From NCBI RefSeq assembly GCF_900108095.1, contig NZ_FNWL01000001.1:62001-126000 (forward strand): 64,000 nucleotides of DNA, read 5' to 3'. Every line of letters begins with the position of its first letter. Within the stretch, counting starts at the first letter, position 1. This document shows positions 24,939-52,349 of this stretch, piece after piece. Under the pieces are notes generated by a model, which did no database searches, was not told the DNA's origin, and worked only from the letters and a program-made list of their open reading frames with translations. This DNA comes from Natronorubrum sediminis. GTDB lineage: Archaea > Halobacteriota > Halobacteria > Halobacteriales > Natrialbaceae. Position numbers and translations under genes: made by a program.

Positions 24939-25102
24939 TCGGTTTGACGCGAAGACTGCGTTGCACCCGGTTCCGGAAGTGATTTTACTTCGATTGTGGA
25001 CGCGTTCGATAACTCACGATGGACGAGTCGCGACTGTCGTCTCGAGTCAGTGGTCGACTGCAATGCCAACGTTCACACTCCCGCGAGTACCACTCTGGTG
25101 CA

Positions 25103-26044
25103 ATGAGCACGGCGGAGGTCGATATTTCACGGACGAAGGCGTGGGTGATGGCTGCGCGTCCACAGACCTTGCCCGCGGCCGCGGCACCGATTCTCGTCGC
25201 GACGGGGCTGGCGGTCCACGAGGGCGTGTTCGCGCTGGGGCCAGCAGTGATGGCGTTCGTCGGGGCAGCACTGATCCAGATTGGGACCAACTTTGCGAAC
25301 GACTACTACGACGCGATGAAGGGTGCCGACACCGACGACAGGGAGGGGTTCACGCGGGTCACGCAGGCGGGAATCATCTCGCCCGAACAGGTCAAACTGG
25401 CGACGATCCTGACGTTCGCGCTCGCGATCGTCACCGGCACCTATCTCGTCTACATCGGTGGTGTTCCCATTCTCGTCATCGGACTGGTGAGCGTCTTCTG
25501 TGGCTGGGCGTACACGGGAGGGCCGTACCCACTCGGCTATCACGGACTCGGCGATCTGTTCGTCTTCGTCTTCTTCGGCGTCGTCGCCGTGATGGGGACG
25601 TTCTACGTGCAGGCGGCGGCGACGCTCGCGGACCCGCTCGCGACGACGGTTCCTGAGGGAACGGTCACGCGAGAAGCGTTCCTCGCGAGTCTCCCCGTCG
25701 CCGGACTCTCGACCGCGATTCTCGTCGTGAACAACGTCCGCGACCTCGAGACGGACGCGGAAACCGGCAAGCGAACGCTCGCCGTCAGGCTCGGCTACCA
25801 GTGGAGTCGTCTCGAGTACGTCGCCATGCTCGCGCTGGCGTACGTCACGCCGGTGTGGTTCTGGCTCGGCGAAGGCTACGGAATCGCCGTCTTGTTGCCC
25901 CTGCTTACGCTGCCCTACGCGGCCGTGTTGACCCGAACGATCTACACCCGAACCGACGGAGAGGCGCTGAATCCGGCGCTCGAGGGGACCGGAAAACTGC
26001 TCGCGCTGTACTCGCTGTTGTTCGCACTCGGGGTGGTCGTGTGA
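25103..26044 (+). CDS. menA: DHNA octaprenyltransferase MenA
   Basis: UbiA-superfamily membrane prenyltransferase that attaches the polyprenyl tail to 1,4-dihydroxy-2-naphthoate. The 313-residue protein has eight or nine helices and the two aspartate-rich motifs: [11 protein letters not shown] at about 62-72 and [20 protein letters not shown] at about 212-231. ATG 25103 ([20 protein letters not shown]) precedes the usual RPQTLPAA start of the fold; the frame is open to 25019 but that extension is not conserved-looking. It overlaps menC by 4 bp. Confidence 0.95.
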
Positions 26045-34996: not shown

Positions 34997-35374
34997 ATCG
35001 GCGAGCAACCGCGTGGGTCCGTTCGAATCACGTCCACCTCACGAGTAGTTTTGAGAGTTGACACAGATTACCACGCTGGACGATAAGAAACTCCGACGCA
35101 GTTGTCGGGCGATAGACGGGGCGTCTCGTTCTTCCCATGGTCCATGATATGATGGAACATGTGCTGGCCAATTCAGGGAAAACGGCCTACCCTACTAATA
35201 AATGCACGAACATATTCGCGTCCATTCTCACCCGATGGAAATCGAGTCTATATTTGAACCTGATCTAGTTGTGAGTCCGGTAGTAGAGGATCCACAGATG
35301 ACCGTATTCAACTACGTGTCGGCGTGTTATTACTTCGCAACGAGCGGATTCTCGTCCAGAGGTGTGCTACCGAA
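34997..35374. other. Intergenic regulatory region before the Fe-S/NrfD operon
   Basis: This 378-bp stretch is AT-richer than its surroundings. It contains CTAATAAATG (about 35193), TCTATATTTGAA (35247-35258) and TGTTATTAC (35324-35332), any of which could be TATA elements. It also holds a short interrupted repeat, CCATGATATGATGG. Multiple promoter-like elements fit a regulated operon next to its activator gene. Confidence 0.4.
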
Positions 35375-35378
35375 ATGA
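35298..35378 (+). CDS. Possible 26-codon leader ORF coupled to the Fe-S subunit
   Basis: An ATG-initiated frame reading MTVFNYVSACYYFATSGF through VLPK ends with TGA overlapping the ATG at 35375 (ATGA). No ribosome-binding site is evident and composition is neutral, so it may be chance. It is listed because the same arrangement recurs at 29700 and 61055. Confidence 0.2.
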   Translation: MTVFNYVSACYYFATSGFSSRGVLPK

Positions 35379-37186
35379 GCACGGACGACGAATCTTTCCA
35401 CCCGCTCGGACAAGAGTGGGAGACTGAGCTCGAAGGAATGCTCGACGATACCGAGTACGACTCCGATCTCGGTATGCAAATGGCCCAGGACGCAATGCGC
35501 GTCACCAAGGGCGAACTGTCTGAAGCCGAATTCCACGAAATGTATCACGACGACGTGATGGACGAATTCGGCGTCGACGACCGCCCGACTGAGGAAGCCT
35601 ACGAGGCTGCTCAGGAAGAAGGGAAGGGCGGAGTAGCCCGAATGCTCTCTGCTTTCGACGACGACGGCGAGGAGGGTCGCCGCGACGTCATGAAGAAGAT
35701 GGGCGTCGGTGCCGCTGCCGTCGGCCTCGGTGCGTGGGGCACCGTCGACGACAGCGAACCCAGCCTAGGTATCTCCCAGGAAGGCGACGACGCCGGCGGA
35801 GATGGCGACGACGTCCAGATGGGAATGACCATCGACCTCGAGCAGTGTGACGGCTGTCTCTCTTGTATGTCTGCCTGTGCCGAGGAGAACAACCTCGATC
35901 AGGGTGTCAACTGGATGTACGTCCTCGAGTACGACGAACCAGAGGGCACCCCAGACACGAGCAACAACCTGCTCGTCCGTCCGTGTCAACACTGCACCGA
36001 CGCACCCTGTGAGAAGGTCTGTCCGACCACGGCACGACACACCCGTGACTCCGACGGCCTCGTGCTGACGGACTACGACGTCTGTATCGGCTGTCGATAC
36101 TGTCAGGTCGCGTGTCCCTACGGCGTCAACTACTTCCAGTGGAACGAACCCGACATCTCGACGGACGAAATCGCCGAGGACCACGAGGACATGGATTCCG
36201 ATCACATGACCTCCGAGGATCGGTGGGTCGACAGTCGTGCTCCACGCGGAACGATGAGCAAGTGTACGATGTGCCCAACCCGCCAGGACGGCGGTATGGG
36301 CGACGAGATGGTTGGCACCACAGCCTGTGAGGAAACCTGTCCGCAGGACGCCATCCACTTCGGCAATATGAACGACGAGACGAGCGACCCACAAATCTAC
36401 GCCGACAACCCGAGTCGCGGTCGGACGCTCACGGACTTCGCTCCGGACGAAGCCGACGTCGAGGAGGAACTCGAGGAACTCGAAGACGCCCTCGACGGCG
36501 AAGACGAGGACCTCGACGCGGTTCTCGACGCCTACGACTTCCAGGGTCTCGGTGCCGTAGAAGACGACGAGGAAGGCCTCGCACTCTTGCTCGCACTCGA
36601 GATCACCGCCGAGGACGAACTCGGTGGCGGCGAGGACTACCTCGCACAGAACGAGGAGTTCGTCGCCGCTGCGCTCGAGATCATTGCCGACCACGGACTG
36701 GATCTCGAGAGCCAAGAGGTCCTCTCGGAACTCGACCTCGCAGATGCACCTGAAGAAGACGACGAGGAAGACGACGAAAACGGTGCAGACGAGGACGAAG
36801 ACGAAGCCGACGAGGAAGACGAGGACGAAGACGAAGCCGACGAGGAAGACGAGGACGAAGACGAAGCCGACGAGGAAGAAGAGGACGAAGCGGAAGACGA
36901 GTTCGATGGCCCAGACGAAGGCGCTGCACAGAGCCTCATCGAACAGTACGCTGGCACCCCTGCCTCGAGCTTCCGCTTGCTCGAGGACATGGGGACCAAC
37001 CCGAACATCATCTACCTGGGTAACGAACCCGGACCGAACGCCGAACAGAGTGAGGATCCCGAGGAGCAATCCGACTATGGGAACGTCTCTTACCAGCGAG
37101 CAGACGGCGACCGCGTCGATCTGGTCGACAACCGCAAGGAAATCCTCGACGACGAGACGGTCGGTGACGCTGGGGTGTCCCTATGA
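35375..37186 (+). CDS. Four-cluster Fe-S electron-transfer subunit (DmsB/PsrB type) with acidic insertion
   Basis: A 603-residue protein. Sixteen cysteines form four 4Fe-4S sites: C158/161/164/168, C204/207/212/216, C237/240/243/247 and C297/300/318/322. A 100-residue acidic N-terminal domain precedes a Tat-like segment GRRDVMKKMGVGAAAVGLGA (101-120), so the signal is internal. A roughly 175-residue Asp/Glu-rich insertion (about 345-518, including tandem 10-residue repeats) splits the usual C-terminal region, which resumes at LIEQYAGTPASSFRLLEDMG. It overlaps the NrfD gene by 4 bp. The partner catalytic subunit is not encoded here. Confidence 0.9.
   Translation: MSTDDESFHPLGQEWETELEGMLDDTEYDSDLGMQMAQDAMRVTKGELSEAEFHEMYHDDVMDEFGVDDRPTEEAYEAAQEEGKGGVARMLSAFDDDGEEGRRDVMKKMGVGAAAVGLGAWGTVDDSEPSLGISQEGDDAGGDGDDVQMGMTIDLEQCDGCLSCMSACAEENNLDQGVNWMYVLEYDEPEGTPDTSNNLLVRPCQHCTDAPCEKVCPTTARHTRDSDGLVLTDYDVCIGCRYCQVACPYGVNYFQWNEPDISTDEIAEDHEDMDSDHMTSEDRWVDSRAPRGTMSKCTMCPTRQDGGMGDEMVGTTACEETCPQDAIHFGNMNDETSDPQIYADNPSRGRTLTDFAPDEADVEEELEELEDALDGEDEDLDAVLDAYDFQGLGAVEDDEEGLALLLALEITAEDELGGGEDYLAQNEEFVAAALEIIADHGLDLESQEVLSELDLADAPEEDDEEDDENGADEDEDEADEEDEDEDEADEEDEDEDEADEEEEDEAEDEFDGPDEGAAQSLIEQYAGTPASSFRLLEDMGTNPNIIYLGNEPGPNAEQSEDPEEQSDYGNVSYQRADGDRVDLVDNRKEILDDETVGDAGVSL
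36791..36890 (+). repeat. 30-bp tandem repeat, three units plus partial
   Basis: Units at 36791-36820, 36821-36850 and 36851-36880 are identical except for one base in the last, followed by a 10-bp partial copy. Each unit encodes ten acidic residues (EDEDEADEED) within the Fe-S subunit. Near-identity at the DNA level indicates recent slippage expansion, so unit number probably varies between strains. Confidence 0.95.
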
Positions 37187-38550
37187 GCACGAAGACGCCA
37201 TCCGAAGCGGACATCCTCCGCCCGATCGACAACTTCTCGAAGAAGTTCTTCATCCTCTTCGGTGTCTGTGCCCTGGCACTCGGTGCGTTTCTCGTCGCCT
37301 GGGTCTACCAGCTCTACGTCGGGATGTCGGTTACCGGCCTCTCCGACTGGGGGACCGGCGGCGGTGCGACCTGGGGACTGTACATCGGCGCGTTCATCTG
37401 GTGGGTCGGGATCGCTCACGGCGGGATCATCCTCTCCGCTGCGGTCCGACTGCTCGGCATGGATCGATACATGCCGGTCGCCCGCCTCGCCGAATTGCTG
37501 ACCATCGCCGGCCTCTCCGCGGCTGGCTTCTACATTCTGGTCCACATGGGACGCCCGGACCGCATGGTCACGAGCGTCCTCGGACACTACCACATCACGG
37601 TCAACAACTCGCCGCTGGTGTGGGACGTGACCGTCATCACGGCCTACTTCGTGTTGACGGCGACCTACCTCGCACTGACGCTTCGCTACGACATCACGCG
37701 GCTGCGTGACGATCTTCCAGGCTATCTCTCGCCGGTCTACAACGTCCTGACCCTCGGCTACACCGAGGACGAAGACGAGGTCGTCGAGCGGATGGTTTGG
37801 TGGCTCGCACTCGCGATCATCATCATGGCACCACTGCTGCTCCACGGCGGTGTGATTCCGTGGCTGTTCGCAGTGTTGCCCGGCATGCCAGCCTGGTTCG
37901 GTGCCGTCCAGGGACCACAGTTCCTGACGATCGCACTGACCTCGGCGATCAGCGGCGTGATCATCGTCGCGTACGCGTTCCGACGCGCGTACGATTGGAA
38001 CCACATCATGACCGACGACGTCTTCCGCGGACTGCTCCTCTGGCTGGGCTTCTTCTGCCTGCTGTTCGTCTGGCTCCAGCTCCAACAGAACGTCACCGGT
38101 CTCTTCGCCGCACCAGTGAGCACGGAAGTCGCCCAAGAGGCGACGATCGGTCACTGGATGTACATCGGATCGATGGCGCTCGTCTTCGGGACGCTCGTCT
38201 TCATCTTCGCACAGGCGATCCGTCCGTCGCTGTTCACGAAGGCTCGAGCGATCGTCGCCTCCGTTGCCGTGCTCATGGGCACGCTCGGTGAGAAGCTAAT
38301 CTTCGTCGTCGAAGGCTTCCTGCACCCGGAGTTCGAGATCTACGCGAACACGCCCGGAGAGTACTTCCCGAGTGTGATCGAGTGGCTCTCGCTGCTTGGC
38401 ACGATCGGGATGGTCACGCTGATCTTCCTCGTCGTCTCGAAGGTCGTCCCCGTCGTCGAACTCCACGCCGTCGAACACCTGCGTGGCGATCACGGACACG
38501 GCCACGAGGAAGCAGACGAATCCGCAACTGAACCAGAGGTGAAAGCATGA
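37183..38550 (+). CDS. NrfD/PsrC-type quinone-reactive membrane subunit
   Basis: A 455-residue protein with about nine or ten membrane helices. NrfD-family proteins exchange electrons between the quinone pool and an Fe-S partner; this one starts within the Fe-S gene's stop (ATGA), so the two surely form a complex. Helix one is FILFGVCALALGAFLVAWV, and IGAFIWWVGIAHGGIILSA is a typical family segment. The C-terminus is hydrophilic and His/Glu-rich (HLRGDHGHGHEEADES). There is no heme-ligand pattern. Menaquinone, made by the men genes upstream, is the probable substrate. Confidence 0.92.
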   Translation: MSTKTPSEADILRPIDNFSKKFFILFGVCALALGAFLVAWVYQLYVGMSVTGLSDWGTGGGATWGLYIGAFIWWVGIAHGGIILSAAVRLLGMDRYMPVARLAELLTIAGLSAAGFYILVHMGRPDRMVTSVLGHYHITVNNSPLVWDVTVITAYFVLTATYLALTLRYDITRLRDDLPGYLSPVYNVLTLGYTEDEDEVVERMVWWLALAIIIMAPLLLHGGVIPWLFAVLPGMPAWFGAVQGPQFLTIALTSAISGVIIVAYAFRRAYDWNHIMTDDVFRGLLLWLGFFCLLFVWLQLQQNVTGLFAAPVSTEVAQEATIGHWMYIGSMALVFGTLVFIFAQAIRPSLFTKARAIVASVAVLMGTLGEKLIFVVEGFLHPEFEIYANTPGEYFPSVIEWLSLLGTIGMVTLIFLVVSKVVPVVELHAVEHLRGDHGHGHEEADESATEPEVKA

Positions 38551-38885
38551 GCGCACTCGCAGCCACACTCGCAGAACCGCTCTACCACGGCTACAGTGGT
38601 ACCGAAGGAGTAACCGGATTCCCGAACATCGGGACCTACCTGATCTTCGGCGTCGTGTTGGTACCCATCTACGTGATGGTCATTTCGTGGTTCGTCAGCG
38701 AACCTCGAGACACGAAGACGGGCCTGCTCGGTGTGTCTTACCTCATCGGCATCGCCGCACAGATGTGGATCGGGATGTTCATCCTGACCGTGATCATCGG
38801 GGTCTTGTTCTTCGGCGGCCTCCCGGAACCGCTTGGCTCCCACGGCCCGACCGACTCCATCCCGATCTTCGGGTTCCTGTTCTAA
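38547..38885 (+). CDS. Small membrane protein of the NrfD operon, copy 1
   Basis: A 112-residue protein overlapping the NrfD gene by 4 bp. It opens with a short amphipathic stretch (LYHGYSGTEGVTGFPNIGTY), then two membrane helices (IFGVVLVPIYVMVISWFV and AQMWIGMFILTVIIGVLFF) separated by EPRDTKTGLLGV. It closely resembles the protein at 39026-39310, so the two arose by duplication. It is probably an accessory subunit of the Fe-S/NrfD complex. No function is known. Confidence 0.85.
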   Translation: MSALAATLAEPLYHGYSGTEGVTGFPNIGTYLIFGVVLVPIYVMVISWFVSEPRDTKTGLLGVSYLIGIAAQMWIGMFILTVIIGVLFFGGLPEPLGSHGPTDSIPIFGFLF

Positions 38886-38919
38886 CCGGACAGGCCGACC
38901 TGCTGATCGGTTCTCACCG

Positions 38920-38924
38920 TTTTT
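38920..38924 (+). terminator. Oligo-T run between the paralogous small genes
   Basis: Five T residues in CACCGTTTTTGTTC, 35 nt after the stop at 38885. If it functions, copy 2 at 39026 would need its own promoter. Confidence 0.3.
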
Positions 38925-39025
38925 GTTCTCGTTCAGTCGGCGCTGCCTCGCGAGCCGCGGCCCACCCATGACATCCATGCACACCCAGGGGAAACCACGA
39001 CCCGACCGGGGCGCAAACCCAGATT

Positions 39026-39310
39026 ATGACGCTGGTTGACACGCTCGCGACGATACTCTATCACGGCTACGAAGGGACGGAGGGATGGACCGGATTTCCA
39101 AACGAGGGAACGTACATCATTTTCGGTGTCGTCTTACTGCCGATTTACGTCATGATCATCGCCTGGTTCACGGGTACCCCTCGAGACACGAAAGTCGGGT
39201 TGCTCGGCGTCACGTATCTCGTCGGCATCGCAACGAGTATGTGGGTCTCGATGCTCGTCATGACGGTACTCATCGGGATCATCTTCTACGGTGGTGTGCC
39301 GAGTATCTGA
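39026..39310 (+). CDS. Small membrane protein, copy 2 (paralogue of 38547-38885)
   Basis: A 94-residue protein that keeps the same block order as copy 1: LYHGYEGTEGWTGFPNEGTY, helix IFGVVLLPIYVMIIAWF, TPRDTKVGLLGVTYLVGI and helix SMLVMTVLIGIIFYGG. It lacks the final 18-residue polar tail of copy 1. The 140-bp gap upstream holds a T run, so it may be transcribed separately. Retention of two copies suggests a heterodimer or alternative subunits. Confidence 0.85.
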   Translation: MTLVDTLATILYHGYEGTEGWTGFPNEGTYIIFGVVLLPIYVMIIAWFTGTPRDTKVGLLGVTYLVGIATSMWVSMLVMTVLIGIIFYGGVPSI

Positions 39311-39424: not shown

Positions 39425-40516
39425 ATGAGTATTACAGAACACGAACTTCAGATCGAACTCGAGGGGATCGAAGACCCGGACCTCGGCGGGGATATCGTCT
39501 CGCACGGATTGGTCAACGACGTCCAAATCGAGGACGAAACCGCCCGGATCGAGTTGGCGATGAACGCGCCGTATGCCCCCTCCGAGATGGAACTCGGCAA
39601 TCGAATTCGAGAGGTGTGTGACGAGGCCGGACTCGAGGCCGACCTGCGTGCACACGTCGGCGAGGAACACGGGTTCGACGATCAAGTGCTGCCACGAGTT
39701 CGGAACGTTATCGCCGTCGCCTCGGGGAAGGGTGGCGTCGGCAAGACGACGGTCGCCGCGAACATCGCTGCCGGACTCGAGAAACGGGGGGCGATGGTCG
39801 GGTTGCTCGACGCGGACATTCACGGCCCGAACATTCCGAAGATTCTGCCGCCCGAGAGCGATCCCGGCGTGACGCCGAGTGAGGACATCGTCCCGCCACG
39901 ATCGGACGGCGTCCGAGTCATCAGTATGGGGATGATGATGGAAGACGAAGACGATCCGGCGATCCTCCGCGGGCCGATGGTCAACAAGTTCATGCTGAAG
40001 TTCCTGGAGGGCGTCGAGTGGGGCCGTCTCGATTATCTTATCGTCGACTTGCCGCCGGGAACGGGCGACGCGACGTTGAATCTCCTTCAGTCGATGCCGG
40101 TGACGGGTGCAGTCGTCGTGACGACGCCACAGGAGATGGCCCTCGAGGACACCCGGAAAGGGATTCAGATGTTCAAGAAACACGACACGCCCGTGTTGGG
40201 CATCGTCGAGAATATGAGTTCGTTCATCTGCCCGTCGTGTGACGACCAGCACGGACTCTTCGGTACCGACGGCGCACAGACGATCGTCGACAAGTACGAC
40301 GTGCCGTTGCTCGGCCAGATTCCGATCCACCCGGACTTCGGTGCCGATGGAAGCCAGGGTGCGCTCGTGAAAGACGAGGAGAGTCAGGTTCAGGAGACGG
40401 TCGAAAACCTCGTTGCCGACGTCGCAGATCAAATCGGCGCGACGAATCGCCAGACGGTTGCCGACAACGTCGAAGGGGGGCCGACGAATCAGCTCCCGAC
40501 CGAAACGAAAGACTGA
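39425..40516 (+). CDS. Mrp/NBP35 family Fe-S cluster carrier ATPase
   Basis: A 363-residue protein. It has an N-terminal MIP18/DUF59 domain (about 1-85), then the deviant Walker A SGKGGVGKTTVAANIA (about 99), the DLPPGTGDATLNL loop and the CPSC cluster-binding motif near residue 270 (SSFICPSCDDQHG). Mrp/NBP35 proteins assemble and transfer 4Fe-4S clusters to target apoproteins. Being placed next to a four-cluster oxidoreductase is suggestive but may be chance. Length is normal. Confidence 0.93.
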   Translation: MSITEHELQIELEGIEDPDLGGDIVSHGLVNDVQIEDETARIELAMNAPYAPSEMELGNRIREVCDEAGLEADLRAHVGEEHGFDDQVLPRVRNVIAVASGKGGVGKTTVAANIAAGLEKRGAMVGLLDADIHGPNIPKILPPESDPGVTPSEDIVPPRSDGVRVISMGMMMEDEDDPAILRGPMVNKFMLKFLEGVEWGRLDYLIVDLPPGTGDATLNLLQSMPVTGAVVVTTPQEMALEDTRKGIQMFKKHDTPVLGIVENMSSFICPSCDDQHGLFGTDGAQTIVDKYDVPLLGQIPIHPDFGADGSQGALVKDEESQVQETVENLVADVADQIGATNRQTVADNVEGGPTNQLPTETKD

Positions 40517-43996: not shown

Positions 43997-44604
43997 TAGT
44001 GGCCGTACGCGCGCCCCGCCTAAATTCTCGTCGTCGAGTCGTGAACACCTGTACTCGAGTCGTGAGCGCCGGCACCGACGACAGCGGCCGCGTCGAGCGC
44101 GCGCGACCGATTCCGGCAGTTGCAGGGAGATAACTTATTCGTCGAATTGGCAAACTGTCCGTATGGTGGCAGAAAATGCGGTATAATTCGACACTACCGA
44201 CAGGGAAATATATTCTGGTAAATACCTTTTGGGGCCAAAGCTAAGTACCTGGATTACTCACTCATTAAATACTATCGGTATCCGCTCACCGGACCGATCC
44301 ACTCTGCGCTCGTCCCCGACGCAGCGTCGTTCGAAGCAACACGTGCTTCGTGTACGATGTCGAGTGGTACAAGAAAACACATGACACGACACGGTAGCCC
44401 CTCGGTGCAGTGCTCCCCGCTCCCAGCCCACGTCGCTCGAGGAGCGAGTAGAGAACGGACGCGATGTGTTGTCGCCGGTGAGGCGACCGAGCGGACCCGG
44501 ACGAATCGGTTCCGTCGAAACCGATGGCAACCGCCACCGACTCCGAGCACTCGGCGCGAGGAGAGCCGATGCAGACGGGGGAGAGAACAACTGGCAATGA
44601 TACC
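43997..44604. other. Long promoter/leader region of the prkA operon
   Basis: This 608-bp stretch has no supported gene. It contains the leftward DUF5820 promoter and an AT-rich island (44150-44285) with three TATA-like elements: GTATAATTC (44181), GAAATATATTC (44205) and ATTAAATAC (44264). The last would leave a leader of about 310 nt before ATG 44605, unusually long for this genome, and in-frame ATGs at 44524 and 44569 could be used instead. Confidence 0.45.
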
Positions 44605-46677
44605 ATGACCGGCGATATCGAGACACTCGAGACGCTCAGCACGGATTACAAGGAATCGATGCCCGAAGACCTGCGGGAAACCAAGCCCTTCGATTGGTAC
44701 CTCGGGGAGTGTTACGACGATCCACAGATCACTCGGAACGCTCACCAGCGGGTCGCGGACATGTTCGACTACTACGGCACGACGTACGACGAGACCGAAG
44801 GTGTCGTCGAGTACCAACTCGCCAGCGAAGATCCACTGGGCGACGGTGAGAACACGTTCTACGGAAACGTCATCCACCACTCGATTCACGAGTTCGTGAA
44901 CAAGGTCAAATCGGGTGCCCGCCGATTGGGTCCCGAGCGTCGAATCAAGTTGCTGCTCGGCCCCGTCGGCTCCGGGAAGTCACACTTCGACAAGCAAGTC
45001 CGCAAGTACTTCGAAGATTACACCCTCCGCGAAGCGGGCCGAATGTACACATTCCGGTGGACGAACCTCTGTGACGTCATCGTCGATCAAGACCCCGCCG
45101 ACGACGTCGTCCGTTCGCCGATGAATCAGGACCCACTCGTCCTCTTGCCACTCGAGCAACGCCAGCGGGTGATCGACGATCTGAACGAACGACTCGACGC
45201 ACCCTACACGATCCAGAACGAGCAGGCGCTCGATCCGGAAAGCGAGTTCTACCTGGATAAACTGCTGGCATACTACGACGACGACCTCCAGCAGGTACTC
45301 GAGAATCACGTCGAGATCGTCCGTCTCGTCGCCGACGAGAACAAACGACAGGGCCTCGAGACGTTCGAGCCAAAGGACAAGAAGAACCAGGACGAGACGG
45401 AACTGACGGGCGACGTCAACTACTCGAAGATCGCCATCTACGGGGAAAGCGACCCGCGCGCGTTCGATTACTCGGGGGCGTTCTGTAACGCGAACCGGGG
45501 CATCTTCTCCGGCGAGGAGTTGCTGAAGCTTCAACGGGAGTTCCTCTACGACTTCCTGCACGCGACACAAGAGCAGACGATCAAACCGAAGAACAATCCT
45601 CGGATCGACATCGACCAGGTGATCGTCGGGCGAACGAACATGCCCGAGTACAAGGATAAGAAGGGCGACGAGAAGATGGAGGCGTTCAACGACCGCACCA
45701 AGCGGATCGACTTCCCCTACGTCCTCAGCTACGAGGACGAAGCCAGTATCTACGAGAAGATGCTGAACAACGCCGACGTCCCGGACATCAACGTCGAACC
45801 ACACACTCTCGAGATGGCGGGGCTCTTCGGCGTCCTCACGCGAGTCGAAGAGCCAGACACCGAGACGGTCGATCTGCTCTCGAAGGCGAAGGCCTACAAC
45901 GGGGAAATCGACGAAGGCGACGACATCGACAGCAAGAAGCTCCGCGAGGAAGCCGAACAGAAGGCCGAGATTGGCGAAGGGATGGTCGGCGTCTCGCCCC
46001 GGTTCATCGGGGACGAGATCGCCGAGGCGATCATGGACTCCAAACATCGCAGCCGGGGCTTCCTCTCGCCGCTGACGGTGTTCAACTTCTTCGAGGAGAA
46101 CTTAGAGCACCACGGCTCGATTCCCGAGGAGAACTTCGAGCAGTACTACCGCTACCTCGAGACGGTTCGCGAGGAGTACAAGGAGCGAGCCATCGAGGAC
46201 GTTCGCCACGCGCTGGCCTACGACATCGACGAGATCCAGCGCCAGGGCGAGAAGTACATGGACCACGTGATGGCCTACATCGACGACGACACCATCGAGG
46301 ACAGCCTCACGGGCCGCGAGCAAGAACCGGACGAAACCTTCCTCCGTAGCGTCGAGGAGAAACTCGACGTGCCAGAAGACCGGAAGGAAGACTTCCGTCA
46401 GGAGGTGTCGAATTGGGTCTCTCGTCGCGCACGCGAAGGAGAGGCATTTAACCCACAGGACAACGAGCGCCTGCGCCGCGCACTCGAGCGCAAACTCTGG
46501 GAGGACAAGAAACACAACATCAACTTCTCCGCGCTGGTGAGCGCCAACGAGTTCGACGACGACGAGCGTTCGGCGTGGATCGACGCGCTGATCGAACAGG
46601 GCTACTCCGAGGGCGGCGCGAAGGAAGTACTCGAGTTCGCCGGCGCGGAGGTCGCCAAAGCAGAGATGGAAGACTAA
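44605..46677 (+). CDS. prkA1: PrkA-family AAA+ protein, paralogue 1
   Basis: A 690-residue homologue of PrkA/YeaG. Residues 119-126 are the Walker A loop GPVGSGKS in the PrkA-type AAA domain. QVIVGRTNMPEYKDKK and the C-terminal PrkA domain from about 370 (with FNDRTKRIDFPYVLS) follow. PrkA was named a serine kinase but the sequence shows a AAA+ ATPase with a family-specific C-terminal part. It starts MTGDIETLETLSTDYKESMP; two earlier in-frame ATGs add a nonconserved Ser/Thr-rich tail. One base separates its stop from the next gene. Confidence 0.9.
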   Translation: MTGDIETLETLSTDYKESMPEDLRETKPFDWYLGECYDDPQITRNAHQRVADMFDYYGTTYDETEGVVEYQLASEDPLGDGENTFYGNVIHHSIHEFVNKVKSGARRLGPERRIKLLLGPVGSGKSHFDKQVRKYFEDYTLREAGRMYTFRWTNLCDVIVDQDPADDVVRSPMNQDPLVLLPLEQRQRVIDDLNERLDAPYTIQNEQALDPESEFYLDKLLAYYDDDLQQVLENHVEIVRLVADENKRQGLETFEPKDKKNQDETELTGDVNYSKIAIYGESDPRAFDYSGAFCNANRGIFSGEELLKLQREFLYDFLHATQEQTIKPKNNPRIDIDQVIVGRTNMPEYKDKKGDEKMEAFNDRTKRIDFPYVLSYEDEASIYEKMLNNADVPDINVEPHTLEMAGLFGVLTRVEEPDTETVDLLSKAKAYNGEIDEGDDIDSKKLREEAEQKAEIGEGMVGVSPRFIGDEIAEAIMDSKHRSRGFLSPLTVFNFFEENLEHHGSIPEENFEQYYRYLETVREEYKERAIEDVRHALAYDIDEIQRQGEKYMDHVMAYIDDDTIEDSLTGREQEPDETFLRSVEEKLDVPEDRKEDFRQEVSNWVSRRAREGEAFNPQDNERLRRALERKLWEDKKHNINFSALVSANEFDDDERSAWIDALIEQGYSEGGAKEVLEFAGAEVAKAEMED

Positions 46678-46678
46678 C

Positions 46679-48964
46679 ATGACCGGCAACGACTACGTCA
46701 CCGAGGCCGACCGCGCGTTAGAAGAGACCTACGAGGAGCCGATGGGTCTCGCGGCGTACGTCGATCGGATCTTCGAAAACCCGACGATCGCCTCTCACGC
46801 CTCGAAGTACCTGCTCGAGGCGATCGAAGCCGCGGGTACCCGTACCGTCGTCGAGGAGGGCGAGGAGAACGAACGCTACCGGTTCTTCGACGATCCGCAC
46901 AACGACGGTGAGCACGCCATCCTCGGGAACACCGAGGTGCTCAATCGGTTCGTCGACGACCTCCGATCCATCGCGGCTGGCCGAGCGAAAGACGAGAAGA
47001 TCATCTGGTTCGAGGGGCCGACCGCGACCGGCAAGTCCGAACTCAAACGCTGTCTGGTCAACGGCCTGCGGGAGTACTCGAAGACGCCAGAAGGTCGTCG
47101 GTACACGGTCGAGTGGAACGTCGTCTCGGGCGAGGCCGACGAGCGCGGCCTGAGCTACGGCGGCGACCCTTCGGCGGGGGACGAGCAGTACTGGTACGAG
47201 AGTCCCGTCCAGACACATCCGCTGTCGGTGTTTCCCGAGGAAATTCGAACCGGCCTCCTCGCCGACCTGAACGAACGAATCGAGGACCACGTTCCGATAC
47301 GCGTCGACACCGCCCTCGATCCGTTCTCTCGAGAGGCCTACGACTACCTCGAGGAACGGTACCGGCGAGCGGGTGAAGACGCCCTGTTCTCTGCGATCAC
47401 CGACGAGGATCACCTGCGAGTGAAGAACTACGTCGTCGACGTGGGTCAGGGCGTCGGCGTCCTTCACTCCGAAGACGAGGGGCTACCCAAGGAGCGACTC
47501 GTCGGCTCGTGGATGCACGGCATGGTCCAAGAGTTAGACTCCCGCGGGCGAAAGAATCCGCAGGCGTTCAGCTACGACGGCGTCCTTTCCCAGGGCAACG
47601 GCGTGCTCACGATCGTCGAGGACGCGGCCCAACACGCCGACTTGCTCCAGAAACTGCTGAACGTCCCCGACGAGCAGTCGGTCAAGCTAGACAAGGGAAT
47701 CGGGATGGACGTCGATACGCAGATGCTCATCATCTCGAACCCCGACCTCGAGGCCCAACTCAATCAACACGCGGATAGAAACGGAATGGACCCGCTCAAG
47801 GCGCTCAAACGCCGCCTCGACAAACACCAGTTTGGCTACCTGACGAACCTGAGTCTCGAGTGTGAACTCATCCACCGCGAGTTGACCAACGAAACCGAAA
47901 TCTGGGACGCTGAGGGCTACGACGAACTCGAGGAGCGGATTCGAGAGCCGGTGACGGTGACGCTCAAAGATCAGGACGGGCAGACGCGAATAGAGGAGTT
48001 CGCACCGCACGCGATCGAGGCGGCCGCACTGTACGCGGTCGCGACGCGACTCGACGAGGAGAACCTCCCCAACGGCCTGGACCTGGTCGACAAGGCGTTG
48101 ATCTACGATCAGGGGTACCTCCAGGAAGGCGATACCCGCCGGGAGAAAGAAGACTTCGACTTCGACGACGATAACCACGACGGCGAGCACGGAATCCCGG
48201 TCACGTACACGAGGGACACCCTCGCCGAACTCGTCCAGACCGAACGGGACCGCCACCATCCCGAATTCCCCGTCGAGAACGTCGTCATGCCTCGAGACGT
48301 GTTGAACACGATGGCCGAAGGGCTCTCCGACGCCCCCGTCTTCTCGACGGGCGAGCGTTCGGAGTTCGAAAATCGAATCGTGCCGGTGAAAAATTACATC
48401 TTCGACAGACAAGAGAGCGACGTCATCGAGGCCATCATGTACGACAAACGCGTCGACGAGGAGACCGTCGCCGAGTACGTCGAACAGGTCTACGCCTGGG
48501 AGACTGACGAACCCCTACAGAACGACCGCGGCGAACGCGTCGAGCCCGATCCGTTGAAGATGAAACTCTTCGAGATCGAACACCTCGGTCGGTTCTCGGA
48601 GGCAGAATACGAGGGGAACTTGCCTCGAGAGAGCGTTCGAAACTTCCGTCGCGAGAAGGTCATCACGTCGCTCAATCGGCACGCGTGGGAGCACCGCGAC
48701 GAGGACTTCGCCGTCGAGGACGTCGATCTCACGGCGATTCCGGTGATCAAGTCGGTCCTCGAAAGCCACGATTGGGAGGACGTGCGCCGAACCTTCGAGG
48801 ACTTCGATCCGCGACAGTGGGATGACCCACCGAGCGGGACGGAGACGGCAGCGATCAAAGCCCAAACGATCGAGACGATGGTCGACCAGTTCGCGTACTC
48901 CCCCGCGTCGGCCGAGTTGACCAGCAGACACGTTATGGGACAGGTGAGCTACCGATGGGACTGA
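46679..48964 (+). CDS. prkA2: PrkA-family AAA+ protein, paralogue 2
   Basis: A 761-residue paralogue of the preceding protein. Its Walker A is GPTATGKS (113-120), followed by the long acidic insertion with the AAA core ending near [14 protein letters not shown]. The C-terminal PrkA domain is retained ([13 protein letters not shown]). It differs from paralogue 1 in having a variant P-loop and additional acidic segments, so the pair probably works as a hetero-oligomer. It overlaps the yeaH gene by 10 bp. Its substrate and effect are unknown. Confidence 0.9.
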
Positions 48965-50280
48965 GAGACGACCTCGAGCGATTCCGTGAAGTGGGTGAAA
49001 AGCGCCGCGAAGATCTGGCCGACTTCATCCAGTACGGCGACCTCGCCGGCGGGAAGGAGTCGATCCAGATTCCGGTGAAAATCGTCTCCCTACCCGAATT
49101 CGAGTACGACCAATTCGACAAGGGCGGCATCGGTCAGGGAGACGGCGACACGCCCGACGTGGGACAGCCGGTCGGCCAGCCACAGCCACAACCGGGTGAC
49201 GACGACGGTGACGACGGCGAACCCGGCGAGGAAGGCAGCGAGCACGAGTACTACGAGATGGACCCCGAGGAGTTCGCCCAGGAACTCGACGAGGAGTTGG
49301 GTCTCGACTTAGATCCGAAGGGGAAGACGGTCGTCGAGGAGAAGGAAGGCCCCTTCACGGACATGACCCGAACGGGCCCCGACAGTACGCTCGACTTCGA
49401 GCGGATGTTCAAGGAGGGCCTCAAGCGAAAACTCGCGATGGACTTCGACGAGGAGTTCCTTCGGGAAGTCTGCAAGGTCGAGGGAATCACGCCTCGAGCG
49501 GTCTTCGAGTGGGCACGCGGCGAAAGCCTCCCCGTCTCGATGGCCTGGATCGAGGAGGCCTACAGCGAGGTTCCCGACGACGAGCGTGGAACGTGGGCCT
49601 CTATCGAAGAACTCGAGGCGAACGTCGAGCGCGAGAGCGTCCAGCAGAAGATTCGCCGTGAAGGGATCAAGCACGTCCCGTTCCGACGCGAGGACGAACG
49701 CTACCGCTACCCCGAGATCATCGAGGAGAAAGAGAAGAACGTCGTCGTGGTCAACATCCGCGACGTCTCGGGTTCGATGCGCGAGAAGAAACGCGAACTC
49801 GTCGAGCGAACGTTCACGCCGCTAGATTGGTACCTGCAGGGCAAGTACGACAACGCCGAGTTCGTCTACATCGCCCACGACGCGGAAGCCTGGGCCGTCG
49901 AGCGCGACGACTTCTTTGGCATCCGAAGCGGCGGCGGGACGAAAATCTCGAGCGCGTACGAACTCGCGAACGAGTTGCTCGAGGAGTACCCCTGGAGCGA
50001 CTGGAATCGCTACGTCTTCGCCGCGGGTGACTCCGAGAACTCGAGTAACGACACGGGGGAACGAGTTATTCCGTTGATGGAGGAAATCGACGCGAACCTC
50101 CACGCCTACGTCGAGACCCAACCTTCGGGCAACGCGATCAACGCGACCCACGCCGAGGAACTCGAGCGACACTTCGGCACCGATGCGGACGACGTGGCGG
50201 TAGCGTACGTCAACAGCAAAGACGACGTGACCGACGCGATTTACGAAATTCTCTCGACGGAGAGTGAGGGCGATGACTGA
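48955..50280 (+). CDS. yeaH: YeaH/YhbH family (UPF0229) protein with vWA domain
   Basis: A 441-residue protein. It has an N-terminal acidic, Gln/Pro/Gly-rich linker (about 60-95), the [16 protein letters not shown] segment typical of the family and, from about 262, a von Willebrand A domain with MIDAS-like [11 protein letters not shown]. In bacteria, yeaG(prkA)-yeaH genes are cotranscribed, and the YeaH-vWA is thought to be a partner of the AAA protein, as in other AAA/vWA pairs. It overlaps prkA2 by 10 bp. Confidence 0.92.
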
Positions 50281-50315
50281 GAGCGGACTAGCACGACACA
50301 ACCACAGTGGTGTCC

Positions 50316-52349
50316 ATGAGTAAGACAAACTCCAACGCGGATCGCTTCCGCAAACAGGCGATCGCGAGCGACCTCGAGGAACCGGTTTCGGAAGCCAGAA
50401 ACTTGGCCGAAAAACTCGGCCTCGAGCCGTATCCGGTCAAGTACTGGATCATCGATTACGACGAGATGAACGAACTCATCGCCTACGGGGGGTTCCAGAA
50501 CCGGTACCCACACTGGCGCTGGGGGATGCAGTACGACCGACAGCAAAAGCAAGGCCAGTACGGCGGCGGCAAGGCCTTCGAGATCGTCAACAACGACAAT
50601 CCAGCCCACGCGTTCCTCCAGGAGTCGAACACGATCGCGGACCAGAAGGCCGTCATCACCCACGTCGAAGCCCATTCCGATTTCTTCGCGAACAACGAGT
50701 GGTTCGGACTGTTCACCAGCGGCCGAACAGACGAACAGGTCAACGCTGCGGCGATGTTGGCCCGGCACGCGCGTGCCATCGACGAGTACATGGCCGACCC
50801 CGACATCGACCGCGCGGAAGTCGAAAAGTGGATCGACCACTGTCTCTCCCTCGAGGACAACATCGACCAACACCAGGTCTTCGTGCGTCGACTCGAGGTA
50901 GACGGACCGACGGATGACCTCGAGGACCTCGACGACGACCTCGCGGAGAAGGTGGCCGAACTCGACCTCTCCGAGGAGATCAAAGGCGAGGTGTTCGACA
51001 AGGAGTGGCTCGAAAAACTCGAGGCGGGCGAGGAGTCCGTGACGTTCCCCGAAGAGCCCCAAAAGGATATACTCGCGTTCGTTCGCGAACACGGGAAACA
51101 GTACGACGGCGAGGCGGGTCGCGCCCTCGAGATGACCGAGTGGCAACGCGACATCCTGGATATGATGCGCGCCGAGGCGTACTACTTCGCCGCCCAGAAG
51201 ATGACGAAGGTGATGAACGAGGGGTGGGCCGCTTACTGGGAGTCGACGATGATGACCGACGAGGGTTTTGCCGGCGACGACGAGTTCCTGAACTACGCCG
51301 ACCACATGGCCAAGGTGTTGGCTTCCGGCGGGCTCAATCCTTACAGCCTCGGCATGGAGCTCTGGGAGTACGTCGAGAACCGAACGAACCGACGCGAGGT
51401 GCTCGAGCACCTGCTTCGAATCGAGGGCGTCTCGTGGCGGAACCTGATGGACGTCGTCGACTTCGACGAGGTTCGGGACGCGCTCGAGCCACCAGCGCCA
51501 CTCGCGACGATCACGCCGGAGACGATCGAGGAACTCGCGGACGTTCCAGACGAATACGTCGACCACGACGCACTCGAGGCGGCACGGGCGGGTGAAATCG
51601 ACGTCGAGCGCTATCCCTGGAAGGTGCTCACCACCGAGGGGTTGGCCCGACGCCACTACTCGCTGCTCAAGCGCCAACATCGCGGCTTCCTGACTCGAGT
51701 CAGTCAGAACGATGTGGAGCAGATCGGTCGCTACCTCTTCGACGACGCTCGGTACGAGTCCGTCGAGGAGGCGCTCGCGGACGTCGACTTCTCGGCCGGC
51801 TGGAATCGGATGTACGACATTCGCGAGAGCCACAACGACGTGACGTTCCTCGACGAATTCCTCACGGAGGAGTTCATCACGGAGAACAACTACTTCACGT
51901 ACGAACACTCGAAGGCGACCGGGCAGTACCACGTCGCGAGCGACGCCGCCGAGGACGTCAAGAAGAAGCTCCTGTTGCAGTTCACCAACTTCGGCAAGCC
52001 GACGATCGCGGTCTACGACGGCAATTACAACAACGCGAACGAACTGCTCCTTGGCCACCAGTACAACGGCGTGATGCTCGATCTCGGGAAGGCTCGAGAA
52101 ACCCTCAAGCGGATCTTCGAACTGTGGGGTCGTCCGGTGAACGTACAGACGATCGTCAAGGAGGTCAACGAACACGACGTCGAAGTGGCGAAACGACGGA
52201 ACCGAGAGCCAGAGCCAGAAGAGCAAGGCAAGTTGCTTCGCTACGACGGCGAGGAGATAACCGTCGAGGACCTCCCCTGGGAGGAAGTCGATCATCTCGC
52301 TGCAGACGACGTCGACTACGATACGAAACCGGACGAGTGGCTCGCGTAG
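50316..52349 (+). CDS. SpoVR family protein
   Basis: A 677-residue protein matching SpoVR/YcgB: the N-terminal KYWIIDYDEMNELIAYGGFQ and RYPHWRWGM, VEAHSDFFANN, NEGWAAYWESTMM and LGMELWEYVENR. Bacterial spoVR genes accompany prkA and yeaH, as here, and are involved in spore cortex or stationary-phase physiology by unknown chemistry. The ATG at 50316 follows a short spacer after yeaH. It ends the operon. Confidence 0.94.
   Translation: MSKTNSNADRFRKQAIASDLEEPVSEARNLAEKLGLEPYPVKYWIIDYDEMNELIAYGGFQNRYPHWRWGMQYDRQQKQGQYGGGKAFEIVNNDNPAHAFLQESNTIADQKAVITHVEAHSDFFANNEWFGLFTSGRTDEQVNAAAMLARHARAIDEYMADPDIDRAEVEKWIDHCLSLEDNIDQHQVFVRRLEVDGPTDDLEDLDDDLAEKVAELDLSEEIKGEVFDKEWLEKLEAGEESVTFPEEPQKDILAFVREHGKQYDGEAGRALEMTEWQRDILDMMRAEAYYFAAQKMTKVMNEGWAAYWESTMMTDEGFAGDDEFLNYADHMAKVLASGGLNPYSLGMELWEYVENRTNRREVLEHLLRIEGVSWRNLMDVVDFDEVRDALEPPAPLATITPETIEELADVPDEYVDHDALEAARAGEIDVERYPWKVLTTEGLARRHYSLLKRQHRGFLTRVSQNDVEQIGRYLFDDARYESVEEALADVDFSAGWNRMYDIRESHNDVTFLDEFLTEEFITENNYFTYEHSKATGQYHVASDAAEDVKKKLLLQFTNFGKPTIAVYDGNYNNANELLLGHQYNGVMLDLGKARETLKRIFELWGRPVNVQTIVKEVNEHDVEVAKRRNREPEPEEQGKLLRYDGEEITVEDLPWEEVDHLAADDVDYDTKPDEWLA

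Follow-up and report, generated by a model that had tools for sequence, protein, structure and literature searches.

Alternative complex III (ACIII; ActABCDEF; PDB 6F0K, 6BTM, 6LOD and 8K9E) oxidizes menaquinol in organisms without cytochrome bc1, and in Roseiflexus its electron acceptor is the blue copper protein auracyanin (PMC8552683). The complex contains three 4Fe-4S clusters and one 3Fe-4S cluster, and is composed of ActB, in which a MopB-like domain is fused to an Fe-S part, the NrfD-type subunit ActC, a second NrfD-like subunit devoid of quinol site (ActF), the pentaheme ActA, the monoheme ActE and the small two-helix ActD. The quinol pocket of ActC has been described in PMC5928083. 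Four-cluster Fe-S and NrfD subunits are also common to DmsABC and PsrABC (the CISM family), where they accompany a catalytic MopB subunit. Further Fe-S/NrfD pairs are known in QrcCD, DsrOP and NrfCD, with a multiheme or Mo-type partner within the complex; in QrcC, Y113, located between cluster cysteine ligands, is essential (PMC13059093). Forty-two archaeal sequences called DmsC have been placed in the ActC/ActF/DsrP group, and no orphan complex was described among them (PMC8076601).

About one third of haloarchaea, especially the Natrialbales, lack complex III, and the path followed by their electrons was still considered unresolved in 2021 (PMC8305020). None of the genes of Natronomonas pharaonis could be attributed to this complex (2010, PMC2881530). 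In the analysis of Natrialba magadii (2012), halocyanins were predicted to be carriers to the terminal oxidases, and the transfer from quinone to halocyanin was left unresolved where bc1 is missing (PMC3403918). For related Natrialbaceae, quinol-type oxidases and a lack of complex III were inferred, and homologues of ACIII were stated to be absent (PMC6176080). A search of the freely readable literature revealed no prior proposal of NrfD acting with halocyanin or of a haloarchaeal ACIII. Here we analyze an operon which probably encodes a heme-free functional replacement of complex III, as a candidate menaquinol:halocyanin oxidoreductase.

Gene organization and conservation of the module

The window, i.e. 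the whole stretch of 64,000 nucleotides analyzed (G000:C1:62001-126000), belongs to a haloarchaeal genome of 3.78 Mb. Its source is Natronorubrum, a member of the Natrialbaceae; the NrfD encoded here shares 90% identity with the Natronorubrum texcoconense protein. All the features of the module are on the + strand. A gene coding for an HTH_10 (bat-type) regulator (PF04967, 34211..34996) precedes the operon and is followed by the gene of the four-cluster Fe-S subunit (35375..37186, 603 aa, Fer4 families and PF16947) and by that of the NrfD/ActC-like membrane subunit, the candidate quinol-binding protein (37183..38550, 455 aa, about 10 transmembrane helices, PF03916). Next come the conserved copy of a small two-helix membrane protein gene (38547..38885), a second small membrane protein gene, which is an optional tandem duplicate (39026..39310), and an Mrp/ApbC-type Fe-S carrier gene (39425..40516, PF10609 and PF01883). 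The latter is the conserved end of the cluster; the first-pass annotation of this DNA had correctly grouped the Fe-S, NrfD and small genes and left the mrp/apbC gene uncounted. As it had reported, neither a molybdopterin nor a heme gene is encoded within the operon. The module start, which it had placed at 35298, had to be moved: the Fe-S open reading frame (35324..37186) begins at a GTG codon, and conservation among orthologues favors the ATG at 35375 as the probable true start. The residues of the Fe-S subunit are numbered from this ATG.

The gene order was compared over 68 related loci containing an adjacent Fe-S/NrfD pair, a check which the first-pass annotation had proposed, and the arrangement was found to be kept. 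In the window, the NrfD gene shares 4 bp with the Fe-S gene at one end and 4 bp with the first small gene at the other, and each of these overlaps is exactly 4 bp long in 50 of the 68 loci. The translational coupling proposed for the Fe-S/NrfD pair is thus conserved and not a chance feature. Furthermore, the mrp gene is found 3' of the module in 61/68 loci, and the regulator gene, already recognized as a neighboring bat-type activator, lies 5' of it on the same strand in 42/68. Menaquinone genes had also been said to be nearby; a single possible case was identified, a UbiA-family gene (25019-26044) about 9 kb 5' of the operon, but it is outside the conserved cluster. Elsewhere in the window (44524-52349, + strand), PrkA kinase-type, DUF444 and SpoVR-type genes form another conserved-looking cluster.

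The NrfD subunit is related to ActC

In searches of the PDB, including one by profile with E values up to 10, only ActC chains matched the NrfD subunit, over its full length, and nothing else meaningful was obtained. The AlphaFold2 model of NrfD (pTM 0.80) could be superimposed on ActC with Z scores of 36.8-38.2 over about 420 residues, on ActF with a Z score of 28 over 352 residues, and on PsrC with a Z score of 18 over 240 residues, the last being a partial match only. In length, fold and most of the quinol-site residues, NrfD corresponds to ActC. ActC W82, H139 and D169 are aligned with the identical residues W64, H121 and D148 of NrfD, which are invariant in 38 homologues, and the pocket residues I86, F89 and L166 are aligned with identical residues as well, whereas D253 is not kept. 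The inner proton half-channel of ActC is mostly kept (H97, D191, R196, D197, E122, R119, S103, T125 and Y176), little of the outer one is, and in NrfD a Lys stands at the position of the proposed gatekeeper R395. The present NrfD proteins may be among the 42 archaeal DmsC sequences of PMC8076601.

The His/Glu-rich C-terminus of NrfD, pointed out in the first-pass annotation, varies among homologues and was rejected as a functional hallmark.

A second NrfD, 76% identical to the first, stands alone in the same genome (L096 8890-10239; G000:C2:1088889-1090220), and so does a second Ferredoxin_N Fe-S protein (L095 8051-9670; G000:C2, near 611436), whose gene is surrounded by ABC-transporter genes that give no respiratory clue. 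Both solitary copies are found in most of the Natrialbaceae sampled, and together they might make up another complex of like kind. No counterpart of ActF is encoded in the operon and, unlike ActF, the clade of the solitary NrfD paralogue keeps the quinol-site residues.

The Fe-S subunit carries its own export signal

Three regions succeed one another in the Fe-S subunit. The N-terminal domain of about 100 residues, noticed in the first-pass annotation, corresponds to Ferredoxin_N (PF16947, 35399..35593, E value 1.1e-33). It is followed by the internal twin-arginine (Tat) segment and its hydrophobic stretch, RRDVMKKMGVGAAAVGLGAWG (35678..35740), and then by the cluster cysteines (35846..36340). 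Both the Tat segment and the four-cluster character had been predicted, and they are borne out by the A2 alignment of 30 orthologues: R102, R103, M106, K107 and K108 of the RRxxMKK motif are invariant, and so are 16 cysteines arranged in four groups of four (158/161/164/168, 204/207/212/216, 237/240/243/247 and 297/300/318/322). These cysteines would accommodate four 4Fe-4S clusters, in contrast to the cluster content of ACIII. Y242, located between two cluster ligands (C240-R-Y242-C243), is invariant in the same alignment and recalls Y113 of QrcC.

The protein matches Fe-S subunits of the ArrB type and, in ActB, the Fe-S part; it is similar to the C-terminal portion of ActB, but the MopB-like domain of the latter is absent: the only Pfam families detected are Ferredoxin_N and Fer4. 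The predicted model was poor (pTM 0.51). In its organization, this orphan protein looks like a Ferredoxin_N domain and a Tat signal fused onto an Fe-S subunit, and such a fusion would meet the need for export without a MopB carrier. The possession of its own Tat signal distinguishes it from the Fe-S subunits of DmsABC and PsrABC.

The acidic insertion reported in the C-terminal region is real (36425..36952, A2 alignment) but not universal. It is strongly variable and is missing in Natronosalvus (L156), Salinarchaeum (L187) and a Natrialbaceae MAG (L178), and it was accordingly discarded as a functional hallmark. Like the His/Glu-rich tail of NrfD, it is a variable, lineage-specific decoration. 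CoxB, the CuA subunit of the window genome, also ends in a long acidic tail that strongly resembles this insert (L194 10248-11276). In another genome (G059), Ferredoxin_N is found as a free open reading frame of 77 aa 5' of a MopB gene (L210 6591-6824), which makes it a mobile domain rather than part of a ferredoxin proper.

One small membrane protein is conserved

A small membrane protein with two hydrophobic stretches (A3 alignment) was found in all 66 of the 66 genomes containing NrfD. The two small proteins of the window are paralogous, as had been proposed, with 66% identity. Two copies are present only in some Natrialbaceae and many loci have a single one; the idea that both are obligatory was abandoned. 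The conserved part of the module is one small protein, and the second is an optional duplicate. The conserved protein might be a counterpart of ActD, the small two-helix subunit of ACIII; haloarchaeal MopB-linked relatives of the module also have a small membrane protein.

Taken as a whole, the module would work like ACIII but is no member of it, because the heme subunits ActA and ActE and the MopB-like domain were looked for and are absent from the operon. It is a minimal, heme-free, ActBC-like candidate.

Terminal oxidases and halocyanins as possible electron partners

CuA oxidases draw their electrons from a one-electron carrier. Among the 194 haloarchaeal genomes surveyed, in which petB-type cytochrome b was scored by PF00033, 51 contain the module and lack petB, and a COX2 gene was found in 50 of these 51 carriers. 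All 30 COX2 loci examined carried the CuA ligand motif; they are a non-random, best-scoring set, of which 29 came from carriers and one from G010. In the genome of the window, the sole COX2 carries this motif (ECFELCGDQHSDM), and one COX1 has no recognizable adjoining COX2. The same genome contains four PF00127 copper-protein genes and no PF13442 cytochrome c, one of which is present in only 4 of 61 genomes of the family. In two petB-less genomes, a COX2 gene is located about 7-10 kb from the module, without being contiguous with it (L078 1624-11131 in G020, and G037:C1:2400726-2411835).

A halocyanin-type gene is situated directly 5' of the Fe-S gene in G117, G180, G047, G104, Natronosalvus and Salinarchaeum (a partial open reading frame in the latter), and in G129 it adjoins the Fe-S gene in divergent orientation. 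In the NrfD tree, these loci are distributed over three distinct regions. Since a genome of several thousand genes contains only a few halocyanin-type genes, it is very unlikely that such adjacency arose by chance in three lineages (a rough estimate gives a probability of the order of 1e-6). No halocyanin gene adjoins the module in the window genome.

The oxidases could instead be quinol oxidases, in which case complex III would be unneeded and the module would serve, for instance, in anaerobic or extracellular electron disposal. Such a view is in line with the inference of PMC6176080, with the window-genome COX1 devoid of a COX2 alongside, and with G129, which keeps the module and has neither COX1 nor COX2. 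However, the CuA ligands found in every COX2 locus examined, including the only one of the window genome, argue against quinol oxidases as a general rule, and a dispensable complex III would fit poorly with a module that is near-universal in petB-less genomes. We regard this explanation as unlikely.

The module and cytochrome b tend to exclude each other

Of the 194 genomes, 137 contain the petB-type cytochrome b and 57 lack it, and the window genome is one with no PF00033 match. The module was found in 51/57 genomes without petB versus 15/137 genomes with it (Fisher p 2e-26, kinship being ignored). Twelve of the 15 genomes possessing both form a separate side clade; once this clade is removed, 51 petB-less carriers stand against 3 petB-positive ones, the p value again ignoring kinship. 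The six genomes deprived of both petB and the module can be accounted for: G001, G007 and G093 are without COX1 or COX2, and the cytochrome b of G002, G010 and G039 is of another, longer type. With 15 genomes containing both, the relation is not a strict switch. This link of the module to the missing complex III is new with respect to the first-pass annotation.

Since a single family accounts for 44 of the 51 petB-less carriers, and in view of the 15 genomes with both, the exclusion could reflect mostly shared descent, the module being an unrelated trait of the Natrialbaceae and a few other groups, accidentally linked to petB loss. Nevertheless, the same pattern recurs in the genus that holds Natronomonas (g33, inside which L192 groups), in g52 and in G129, a member of a third family. 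Within the family of the window, the three genomes without a close NrfD (G046, G137 and G175) all have petB, and the adjacency of halocyanin genes is evidence of an independent kind. An accidental link is therefore judged distinctly improbable.

The exclusion also bears on the direction of the reaction. The module could work in reverse, as a quinone reductase that reduces the menaquinone pool with electrons supplied by an external donor, as the homologous pair QrcCD does (PMC13059093), and some remote relatives adjoin proteins that might be such donors. In L208 (9405-13425, G120), a remote module (about 43% identity) of order FeS-NrfD-small is preceded, on its upstream side, by the gene of an exported lipoprotein of the 2Fe-2S type (PF00111), conceivably a further electron partner. 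In L209 (9330-13606, G046) and L206 (9166-13787, G045), remote Fe-S/NrfD modules are placed beside ethylbenzene-dehydrogenase (EB_dh)-type proteins, possibly a heme partner replacing halocyanin. Against this, halocyanins are predicted to feed terminal oxidases (PMC3403918), and the mutual exclusion with cytochrome b suggests that quinol is oxidized; the reverse reaction is considered highly improbable.

A molybdopterin partner is not required

In relatives at 32-45% identity (L205, L207 and L210), the pair is linked to MopB. The gene order is MopB-FeS-NrfD-small in L207 and L205, and Ferredoxin_N (the separate 77-aa frame)-MopB-FeS-NrfD-NarJ-type chaperone in L210. The window genome encodes two PF00384 proteins, and next to the gene of one of them lie an Fe-S gene of its own and a sequence matching PF03916 (L097). 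When the 194 genomes were searched, no PF00384 protein was found in five petB-less carriers of the module (G020, G032, G043, G101 and G180), and a Mo-type catalytic partner is therefore not required. In spite of these MopB-linked relatives and of the two PF00384 proteins, a catalytic subunit encoded elsewhere, which the first-pass annotation had entertained and which would complete a DMSO- or polysulfide-reductase-like enzyme, is thus refuted as a general rule and scarcely credible otherwise, given also the Fe-S gene that already accompanies one of the two MopB genes and the Tat signal borne by the orphan Fe-S protein itself.

Proposed function

Oxidation of menaquinol in the manner of ACIII, with an external acceptor, had been one suggestion of the first-pass annotation, and it is now strongly supported by the homology with ActC, the exclusion of cytochrome b, the CuA oxidases and the halocyanin neighbors. 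In such a mechanism, menaquinol would bind to the ActC-like NrfD near H121 and D148, close to the outer face of the membrane. Electrons would enter the nearest cluster and run along the Tat-exported Fe-S subunit on the outer face, up to a membrane-anchored halocyanin which, judging from the genomic associations, would feed the CuA-type terminal oxidases. Protons would be released outside, perhaps with additional pumping. The small two-helix protein may be a structural or coupling subunit and, from its family, Mrp/ApbC probably helps to build or supply the Fe-S clusters. The acceptor would be a blue copper protein, like the auracyanin of Roseiflexus. The task would be that of cytochrome bc1/b6f (PetABD in haloarchaea), i.e. 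transfer from quinol to a one-electron carrier, but the module has no sequence relation to it and would operate with neither heme nor, presumably, a Q-cycle.

On the whole, it is fairly likely that the Fe-S/NrfD core by itself transfers electrons from menaquinol to a blue copper protein, that it has taken the place of cytochrome bc1 in several haloarchaeal lineages and that an ActB/ActC-like pair can function as a minimal unit. For the third or so of haloarchaea that lack bc1, including Natronomonas pharaonis and Natrialba magadii, the module provides a near-universal candidate for the step from menaquinone to halocyanin, and one amenable to knockout and assay. If the proposal is true, these organisms would have a complex III without heme, and an ActB/ActC-like pair would be able to act alone.
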